A stretch of DNA of 64,000 nt from the NCBI RefSeq assembly GCF_016925535.1, contig NZ_CP070496.1:1798001-1862000 (forward strand), written 5' to 3'. A program made the translations under genes and the position numbers. The DNA comes from Natronoglycomyces albus (lineage in GTDB: Bacteria; Actinomycetota; Actinomycetes; Mycobacteriales; Micromonosporaceae). The notes under the pieces were generated by a model. It did no database searches, had not been told where the DNA came from, and saw only the letters and a list, made by a program, of their open reading frames with translations. Positions 30,077-32,449 of the stretch are shown here, piece by piece (positions within the stretch are counted from its first letter, which is position 1; each line of letters opens with the position of its first letter).

Positions 30077-30793
30077 GGTCCGCGCGGGGGCTTGCCCGAA
30101 GCGAACGTGCCACTTTTCACGCGAGGCCCAAGCGGCGAATTACGTTGCTACGCAGGCAAAACACAATCCACAATGTAAAGATGAATAAATTTGTAGAACG
30201 GGTTTTGCGGACCCGGTTGACAGCCCCCCATAGGGAGGGCTTACCGTTTGTAAGTCCACGGCGAACAGCGCTTTGCTGGACGTCAATACACTCGGGGGCG
30301 ACTCGACTTGTTTCTCTCCCACGCAGACTGGACAAACGGTGGCTCGCGGCCGCAAGCCACCGGCGGCCAGGTCCAGATCGCGGGGGTCGGCGGAGCGAGG
30401 CGAGCAAGTCGCCGGTAGCGCCTTCTTAGCTGCCGATAACGATCAGTAGACAACAGTTCGTTGCCGCTCAGCCTGACGGTCACGAATTGGTCCGAAGGTC
30501 GTTGTCGAACGCAGAGAATGCGCTGGCCGTACAGGGACTGGGAGAAACCCGTGCGAGGGGCGCAATGCATCTGAGGCATGCGCCCCTTTGCCGTATCCAC
30601 CAACAGCCCACAAAACGGTGAACCCCCAGCGGCGCCAATCGCCCCACTCGACCTCGCCGCACACCCCAAACCACCCCAAAAACACCGCCACCGAGCCCCG
30701 GCCCATAACGGCACCAAGCAGGAGTGGGACCAAAAACGACCACCGGCTACAGTGGTGCCCGAACCGATATCCCCACCGGTCGCAAGGAGACCA
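30077..30793. other. 717-bp spacer, AT-rich at left, structured and terminated at right
   Basis: The left part (30140-30200) is AT-rich. A 79- to 82-codon frame from ATG 30181 has no ribosome-binding site and Arg/Pro/Ser composition, so I do not call it. The middle has a promoter-like site and nested hairpins (see the separate ncRNA entry). The right end (30590-30793) is C/A-rich with no start signal until the lnt ribosome-binding site AAGGAG at about 30783. Confidence 0.4.
30217..30588 (+). ncRNA. Candidate structured non-coding RNA with promoter and terminator
   Basis: TTGACA at 30217-30222 followed 17 bp later by CTTACC could be a sigma-70 type promoter. Downstream, CTGGAC and GTCCAG enclose a hairpin GGTGGCT/AGCCACC, and GGTCGGCG pairs with a later CGCCGG region. 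The stretch ends in a terminator-like hairpin, AGGGGCGCAATGC / GCATGCGCCCCT followed by TTG (30556-30588). I compared it in memory with RNase P, tmRNA, SRP and 6S RNAs and could not match it. An alternative is a decayed gene or a long leader of lnt. Confidence 0.3.
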
Positions 30794-32449
30794 ATGACCA
30801 CCAGTGAACCACCGCCTTCGCCCTTGCCCCGACTCGTGGCGTCACTGGTCACCGACTCCGCGCCGAACAAAGCCGCCCCCGGCCCCCGGTTCACACTCCC
30901 CGTAGCACTCGCCCTCGCCATCATCGCTGGATTGGCCCTCGTAGCCGCATTCCCACCCATAGGCTGGTGGCCCCTAGCCCCCATCTCCGTGGCGCTCATG
31001 GCCGCAGCAGTCCACCGCCGGCGCCCACGCGGCGGATTCGGCATCGGATTCGTCGCCGGACTCGCCTTCTTCCTACCCCTGTTGTCATGGGCCTCCACCC
31101 AAGTGGGCCAATGGCCCTGGATCTTCCTCTCCGCATTGCAAGCGGTCTTCCTAGGACTCATCGGCCTAGCCCTAGCCGCCGCCAGCGGCCTCATCGACCG
31201 CCACCGCGCCCTATGGCCCCTCGCCATCGCCCTAGCCTGGGTCGCGCAAGAAGCCCTGCGCTCCCGCCAACCCTGGGGAGGATTCCCCTGGGGCCGACTG
31301 GCCTTCAGTCAAGCCGACTCACCCACCGTCGCCGCCGCCTGGCTCGGCGGAGCGCCACTAGTCACCTTCATCACCGCGCTGGCCGCCGGAACACTCCTGA
31401 CCGCAGCCTGGAGGCGGCGCTGGTTTAGCAAACCATCCCCACAGACCCTCACCAGACCACTGGCCCTCGCCGGTACCGCCGCGATCCTCATGGTGGTGCC
31501 CATGTGGCTGCCGCTGCACCTGAGTGCCCCCGACGGCGACGACATCACCGTGGGCGTCGTACAAGGCAACGTGCCCCGCATCGGGCTGGACTTCAACGCC
31601 CAACGCCGAGCCGTCCTCGACAACCACGTCCAAGGCACCATCGAGTTGGCCCAACGCGCGGACGCCGGAGAGATCCCCCGGCCCGACCTAGTCGTATGGC
31701 CCGAAAACGCCTCCGACATCGACCCCATCGCCAACGAAGACGCCTACGAGGAGATCTCCCGCGCGGCCGAAGCCATCGCCGCGCCCATCGTCGTTGGCGG
31801 CATCGTCCGTGACCAAGACGGTCTGCACAACGCCAGCCTGGTATGGGACCCCGTCACCGGCCCCGGGTACATGTACTCCAAACAGCATCCGGTGCCGTTC
31901 GCCGAATACGTTCCCGCCAAGGACTTCTTTCGCACCATCGCCGGATGGATTGACCAACGTATGGCCGATGGCCTCGACTCCGTCGCCGGATTCACCCCCG
32001 GAGACCAACCAGGCGTCATCCCCGTCGCCGACACCGCCATCTCCGGCATCATCTGCTTCGAAGTCGCCTATGACGGCCTGGTCGCCGAAGGAGTCCGCGA
32101 AGGCAGCGAAATCATCGCCGTGCAAACGAACAACGCCACCTTCAACAACGCCGAAGCCACCCAACAACTGGCCATGGTGCAGCTGCGCTCAGTCGAACAC
32201 GCCCGCCACGGCCTCATGGCCTCCACAGTCGGCGTCTCGGGCTTCACCGACGAATACGGCAACGTCTCCCAGGCCACCACCTTCAACACCCCGGCCGCGC
32301 TCTCGCAGACACTCCAACTGGGCGAAGCCACCACACCCGCCACGAAACTGGGTATCCTTCCCGAAATGATCATGGTCGCACTGGCCCTGATCGCACTCGG
32401 CTACACCGTCGCCGTGCGCACCCGAGATCGCCGGGCAGGAAAGGGCTGA
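30794..32449 (+). CDS. lnt: Apolipoprotein N-acyltransferase Lnt
   Basis: 551 residues from ATG 30794, preceded by AAGGAGACC. The N-terminal half has 6-7 membrane segments; the C-terminal half is a nitrilase domain on the outer face. The catalytic triad is visible as Glu304 (VVWPEN), Lys363 (YSKQHPVPFAEYVP) and Cys421 (GIICFEVAY). It transfers the third acyl chain to lipoproteins. The dolichol-phosphate-mannose synthase gene follows after 6 bp, the arrangement known as split Ppm1 in several actinobacteria. Confidence 0.95.
   Translation: MTTSEPPPSPLPRLVASLVTDSAPNKAAPGPRFTLPVALALAIIAGLALVAAFPPIGWWPLAPISVALMAAAVHRRRPRGGFGIGFVAGLAFFLPLLSWASTQVGQWPWIFLSALQAVFLGLIGLALAAASGLIDRHRALWPLAIALAWVAQEALRSRQPWGGFPWGRLAFSQADSPTVAAAWLGGAPLVTFITALAAGTLLTAAWRRRWFSKPSPQTLTRPLALAGTAAILMVVPMWLPLHLSAPDGDDITVGVVQGNVPRIGLDFNAQRRAVLDNHVQGTIELAQRADAGEIPRPDLVVWPENASDIDPIANEDAYEEISRAAEAIAAPIVVGGIVRDQDGLHNASLVWDPVTGPGYMYSKQHPVPFAEYVPAKDFFRTIAGWIDQRMADGLDSVAGFTPGDQPGVIPVADTAISGIICFEVAYDGLVAEGVREGSEIIAVQTNNATFNNAEATQQLAMVQLRSVEHARHGLMASTVGVSGFTDEYGNVSQATTFNTPAALSQTLQLGEATTPATKLGILPEMIMVALALIALGYTVAVRTRDRRAGKG

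Follow-up and report, generated by a model that had tools for sequence, protein, structure and literature searches.

RNAs known to be spread over whole bacterial classes, such as 6S RNA, Ms1, tmRNA, RNase P RNA and SRP RNA, serve basic processes, and to our knowledge few independent structured RNAs are common to much of a bacterial class. 6S RNA binds the sigma-70 holoenzyme and templates pRNA, and Ms1, whose forms include Ms1 of M. smegmatis, MTS2823 and scr3559 of S. coelicolor, binds the RNA polymerase core. In the accessible part of one study, Ms1 is described as a structured, independent RNA of about 300 nt that is spread over the Actinobacteria with conserved neighbors, adjoins a HAD-IB gene and went undetected in Glycomycetales when sought by synteny (PMC9130861). 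Here we analyzed a window of 64,000 nt of the 4.0-Mb genome of Natronoglycomyces albus, in which the spacer before lnt holds what is most likely, judging from its sequence and from that of its relatives, an independent RNA gene and not an lnt leader. Like Ms1, it is a structured RNA of similar size that is spread over Actinobacteria with conserved neighbors; Ms1 has a HAD-IB (TIGR01490) neighbor, whereas the RNA of the window adjoins lnt or ppm1 instead (146 of 167 loci).

According to Pfam, the spacer is flanked by an amidohydrolase gene on one side and by lnt, a family-2 glycosyltransferase gene and fxsA on the other. The next gene downstream, lnt, is given as context only (30794 to 32449, forward strand; LNT_N, 2e-33; CN_hydrolase, 2.7e-8; start codon taken from the sequence). 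From its place, we take the family-2 glycosyltransferase gene beyond lnt to be ppm1, and we assume that SCO1423, a name that occurs in papers on ppm1, is ppm1 as well. The original prediction had pointed to a TTGACA promoter-like site, nested complementary segments and a terminator around a stretch with no credible gene. The TTGACA site is present at positions 30217 to 30222 (forward strand), where it reads as the -35 box of a putative RNA promoter, and the pattern recurs upstream of the conserved core in relatives. A candidate -10 box, TACCGT, follows at 30242 to 30247 (forward strand) with a spacing of 19 nt, and TA[CG][CG]GT is aligned there in relatives. The terminator hairpin with its short T run lies where it had been claimed (30556 to 30589, forward strand); its arms of 9 nt each are perfect (30556 to 30564 and 30579 to 30587), TTT alone follows, and 204 nt separate the end of the T run from the ATG of lnt. 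The terminator stem, helix 11 of the consensus of the 29 sequences described below, was 97.1% paired, with changes on both sides in 5 of its 12 pairs. A strict consensus scan reported neither the RNA promoter nor the terminator, support for both being comparative, and a separate terminator was not identified in many distant relatives. Together, sequence and conservation suggest that these elements would function as the RNA's own promoter and terminator, delimiting a predicted noncoding RNA of about 335 nt (30254 to 30589, forward strand; both ends inferred), for which fold energy, covariation and the lack of a conserved frame argue.

The stretch from 30245 to 30592 had a predicted folding energy of -162.1 kcal/mol, compared with -138.7 (standard deviation, 6.5) for dinucleotide shuffles, none of which was as low (0 of 100; z = -3.58). 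A blastn search with the region found full-length or near-full-length relatives in the window's own family, and further ones were recovered from the lnt-upstream regions of other genomes of that family. Alignment A2 comprised the window and 28 relatives (29 of 32 candidates; L177, L283 and L284 were dropped) and spanned the stretch from just after the -10 box to the terminator. Its RNAalifold consensus consisted of a closing helix, a long 5' arm, a 3' arm and the terminator. Standard pairs were found in 89.9% of 2,968 cells, and both-sided changes were found in 45 of 104 pairs, compared with 24.9 in shuffles. The covariation score was 0.225 versus 0.154 for shuffles, and it fell to 0.100 or less with the pairing partners slid. 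The 5' arm (30298 to 30413, forward strand) is formed by consensus helices 2 and 3 (94.8% and 83.1% of cells paired, respectively) and contains the nested segments of the original prediction, CTGGAC (30328 to 30333) and GTCCAG (30371 to 30376) around GGTGGCT (30338 to 30344) and AGCCACC (30355 to 30361). Two relatives (L004 and L006) read CTGGGC/GCTCAG at the outer segments, a compensatory change; in Micromonospora-like relatives the outer segment is mostly CTGGCC, for which an alternative pairing with the adjoining GGCCAG is possible. In three loci of the window's own family f1 (L085, L087 and L089), the RNA was shrunk to little beyond the promoter, the core hairpin and the terminator; the 5' arm may therefore be dispensable. 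GC-rich DNA folds readily, and long frames overlap the region on both strands, as would be expected if the structure had arisen by chance in a GC-rich spacer or belonged to a coding region. However, the compensatory changes fall on one structure and are lost when the columns are slid by 1 to 3, and no frame was constant in place and length across the 29 aligned sequences, so that this explanation is hardly credible. The covariance search across related genomes thus bore out the claim of a new structured RNA, as homologous spacers exist and carry many compensatory changes. Related sequences in these alignments are not statistically independent.

The boundaries originally proposed were nearly right, but the most widely conserved part of the RNA is the hairpin at 30429 to 30513 (forward strand) and not the segments that had been named. 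Other families of the same order were found to have this 3' arm before lnt. Alignment A1 contained 40 of 41 pattern hits (L085 was dropped). It showed both-sided changes in 12 of 16 pairs and a covariation score of 0.471 versus 0.229 for shuffles, a score reached by 0 of 500 shuffles. A covariance model of 84 positions, R1, represents this class-wide core and scored the window's locus at 68.2 bits, the next best match in the genome being 18.6 bits. Through R1 matches, 39 loci from other families, outside the R1 training set, were fetched and their rows fitted to the R1 structure (alignment A3; L156, which has masked letters nearby, was omitted from the covariation set). Both-sided changes were found in 14 of 16 pairs of A3, and the covariation score was 0.554 versus 0.218 for shuffles. 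In A1, A2 and A3, the signal was gone when the pairing partners were slid by 1 to 3 columns.

From the outer strands inward, the core consists of helix P1, an internal loop in which AGUA lies opposite GAA between a C-G and a G-C pair, ACAA opposite GUC, helix P2 and a small apical hairpin, P3. The 5' strand of the internal loop, CAGUAGACAAC (30444 to 30454, forward strand), was identical in all 11 letters in 33 of the 39 model-found loci, and the 3' strand, GGUCCGAAGG (30489 to 30498, forward strand), was the consensus of these loci. AGUA occupied its place in 34 of the 39 loci, with other letters in 5, and the outer closing C-G pair was present in 35 of 38 distinct rows. CGAAG was invariant in A1, whose rows had been picked by a pattern that required CGAAG. 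Because the A1 rows and the 182 loci used for the promoter count below were picked by a pattern of core letters, letter conservation is inflated there; pair covariation was not selected for by this pattern. The strands C-AGUA-G and C-GAA-G presumably match the consensus of the bulged-G module (loop E, sarcin-ricin type), a likeness of letters alone to what is a structural module and not an RNA family.

The RNA is not confined to the order. The initial blastn search with the whole region gave matches in 20 of 61 genomes. Short blastn matches away from lnt (L018 to L020, L023 and L024) were dropped; four of these places, refetched as L046 to L049, look like chance hits. Among genomes drawn from the class Actinomycetes, R1 matched 142 of 296, belonging to 65 of 115 genera, a count that may be low because of the strict filters of the survey. 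One match was found in 140 of the positive genomes and two in the other 2. The remaining 154 of the 296 genomes had no R1 match under these filters, so the RNA is not universal. None of the 19 family f8 genomes among those listed had a match, with 134 further genomes lacking one, and R1 found nothing above chance in the lnt-upstream regions of two f8 genomes (L050 and L051). In a sample of the phylum, 11 of 198 genomes matched, ten of them in Actinomycetes. The eleventh (G359; 27.9 bits), the only match outside the class, was doubtful; its printed sequence has no CGAAG strand, and it was not counted as real. The hosts named among the matches listed, taken from the exact core pattern, include Nonomuraea, Kribbella, Nocardioides, Micromonospora, Salinispora, Actinoplanes, Nocardiopsis, Kineosporia, Oerskovia and Frankiaceae. 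Streptomyces sp. BHT-5-2 carries the RNA as well (56 bits). That copy (L327) lies on NZ_CP081497.1, a 2.8-Mb record called plasmid p1; because the record carries a normally chromosomal region, it may be part of a chromosome. In a contig labelled Candidatus Melainabacteria bacterium (L265; CAJCIY010000090.1), the RNA lies upstream of ppm1, which suggests a mislabelled actinobacterial contig.

The original prediction had left open whether the RNA would be independent or an attenuator. If the RNA controlled the lnt-ppm1 operon in cis, as a leader or attenuator, the conserved hairpin would sense a signal and the terminator would decide on read-through, and a terminator hairpin does lie between the RNA and lnt in the window. 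We examined the neighbors of 195 loci, of which 12 without a single pattern fit were left out and the other 183 gave 167 distinct loci, with distances measured to the first aligned Lnt residue. lnt was found downstream on the same strand in 135 of the 167 and ppm1 in 11, a count that favors lnt since 20 loci had been fetched at lnt. In the rest, lnt was on the other strand in 1, neither gene was present in 3, 1 was ambiguous, and 16 had neither gene but were short of room. Such constancy before lnt or ppm1 on the same strand is more than a free gene would need. However, the constant same-strand place directly before the gene that a leader would have, found in most loci, was absent from nine. 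In four loci, a foreign gene stands between the RNA and lnt. It encodes a TauE/SafE protein in L138 and L170 and an MFS protein in L039, each time on the opposite strand, and a CoA-transferase in L133. In L224, L225 and L290, neither lnt nor ppm1 was found within at least 3 kb, with more than 3 kb on both sides. L141 and L162 have the amidohydrolase gene on one side of the RNA and lnt on the other, both encoded on the opposite strand, an arrangement impossible for an lnt leader; L141, whose 3' strand is TTCGAAG, is among the 12 loci omitted from the count. Because of these intervening genes, absent neighbors and reversed strands, independence fits better than attenuation. The RNA is separable from lnt in some genomes, no antiterminator pairing was noticed, and we regard the leader explanation as unlikely. 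Where the RNA sits close before lnt, it may have an added role in cis. Upstream of the RNA in L224, L225, L259, L133, L137, L138 and L170, we noticed frames that we take for lysine 5,6-aminomutase (KamE-like), and in Micromonospora loci a presumed MutL-like gene stands beside such frames.

In the 420 nt that precede the core, 131 of 182 loci carried the promoter pattern TTGAC-N15..19-[TG]A...T, compared with a mean of 1.85 and a maximum of 5 in 20 mononucleotide shuffles. Upstream DNA was compared among the 123 loci that had a promoter and enough sequence, again with expectations from mononucleotide shuffles. GACACGCC occurred within 160 nt before the -35 box in 66 of the 123 (0.68 expected), mostly at the preferred distances of 26, 38, 43 and 97 nt. 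The inverted repeat GACCTGC/GCAGGTC was present in 25 of the 123 (0 expected) and always ended 9 to 10 nt before the -35 box. Both elements look like transcription factor sites from their sequence and placement; we take GACAC to be a WhiA site. Neither GACACGCC nor the GACCTGC/GCAGGTC repeat was found upstream of the promoter in the window. An independent gene with a conserved promoter and upstream elements is usual for regulatory small RNAs that base pair with mRNAs. The most conserved letters of this RNA, however, are not in an exposed single strand but in an internal loop within helices. Such a placement is more in keeping with binding to a protein than with regulation by base pairing, and we consider a base-pairing regulator improbable.

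We compared the RNA with described families. A scan of Rfam 15 (4,227 models), a check suggested with the original prediction, gave no match in the window at gathering scores and none in the region from 30080 to 30800 up to an E value of 10. Sixteen relatives gave just 7 rows, all with microRNA models and all below gathering. tmRNA and riboswitches were set aside, as neither had an Rfam match in the window or the region. RNase P RNA was rejected too: RF00010 had no match, and the genome's own copy lies elsewhere (G000:C1:1389073-1389472; 304.7 bits). Ms1 was considered because of its published gap in Glycomycetales, and an RNA that binds RNA polymerase in the manner of 6S or Ms1 would agree with the size and breadth seen here, which resemble those of Ms1 (PMC9130861, in the accessible part). 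However, in 12 genomes the R1 scores at 22 loci of the HAD-IB gene family did not rise above chance, and Ms1 identity was rejected on this ground. A Streptomyces-type genome and a Micromonospora-like one share a conserved stretch outside the HAD-IB frame, where Ms1 would be expected, and this stretch is a putative Ms1. 6S RNA is rod-like and independent, as is the RNA of the window, but its length is given as about 180 nt in the accessible text of PMC11077062, compared with about 335 nt here, and no 6S model of Rfam matched. In that same part, the RNA polymerase pull-down from S. coelicolor names scr3559 and scr0792 and no scr142x or SCO142x RNA (PMC11077062). A polymerase-binding RNA of this type is thus, to our judgment, very unlikely, slightly more so than a base-pairing regulator.

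Y RNA, or YrlA, came into consideration because the letters of GGUCCGAAGG presumably recur in a vertebrate Y RNA strand. The partner of these RNAs is Ro60, and the Ro60 (TROVE, PF05731) search led to their rejection: the gene was found in 36 of the 296 class genomes, 30 of them among the 142 hosts, and was absent from the window's genome (G000) and from the other 112 hosts. The RNA is not described in the accessible parts of PMC9130861, PMC11077062, PMC8079986 and PMC11678152, and a tabulated transcript in supplements or subscription papers is possible. A word search of PMC3765725 gave no match, and in the literature searched the core letters occurred in two papers, one on a coronavirus and one on C. 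elegans, both unrelated by title. The RNA therefore looks like an undescribed noncoding RNA that belongs to none of the families tested here, within the already known broad kind of independent structured bacterial RNAs. The observation behind the original prediction was confirmed and its interpretation supported, and the finding was larger than first thought.

Because protein binding fits the constrained internal loop, we propose, with some confidence, that the locus is an independent gene for a structured noncoding RNA of about 335 nt that acts in trans as a component of a ribonucleoprotein. Transcription would start from its own sigma-70-type promoter and end at its own terminator, with the amount of RNA set by control at the promoter. 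The transcript would fold into two long arms, and the near-invariant internal loop of the 3' arm (C-AGUA-G/C-GAA-G) would be where a conserved protein docks; the complex of the two would then act in trans. The odds seem even that its physiological role would be that of an undescribed housekeeping-type RNA of the Actinomycetes, with a breadth like that of Ms1, present in antibiotic-producing genera, forming a dedicated RNA-protein complex through the bulged-G-like loop and switched by transcription factors of its own. Nearly half of the Actinomycetes genomes sampled carry the RNA, including Streptomyces, yet it is missing from Rfam. If the proposal is true, this RNA would open the way to an unknown process in the chief producers of antibiotics.
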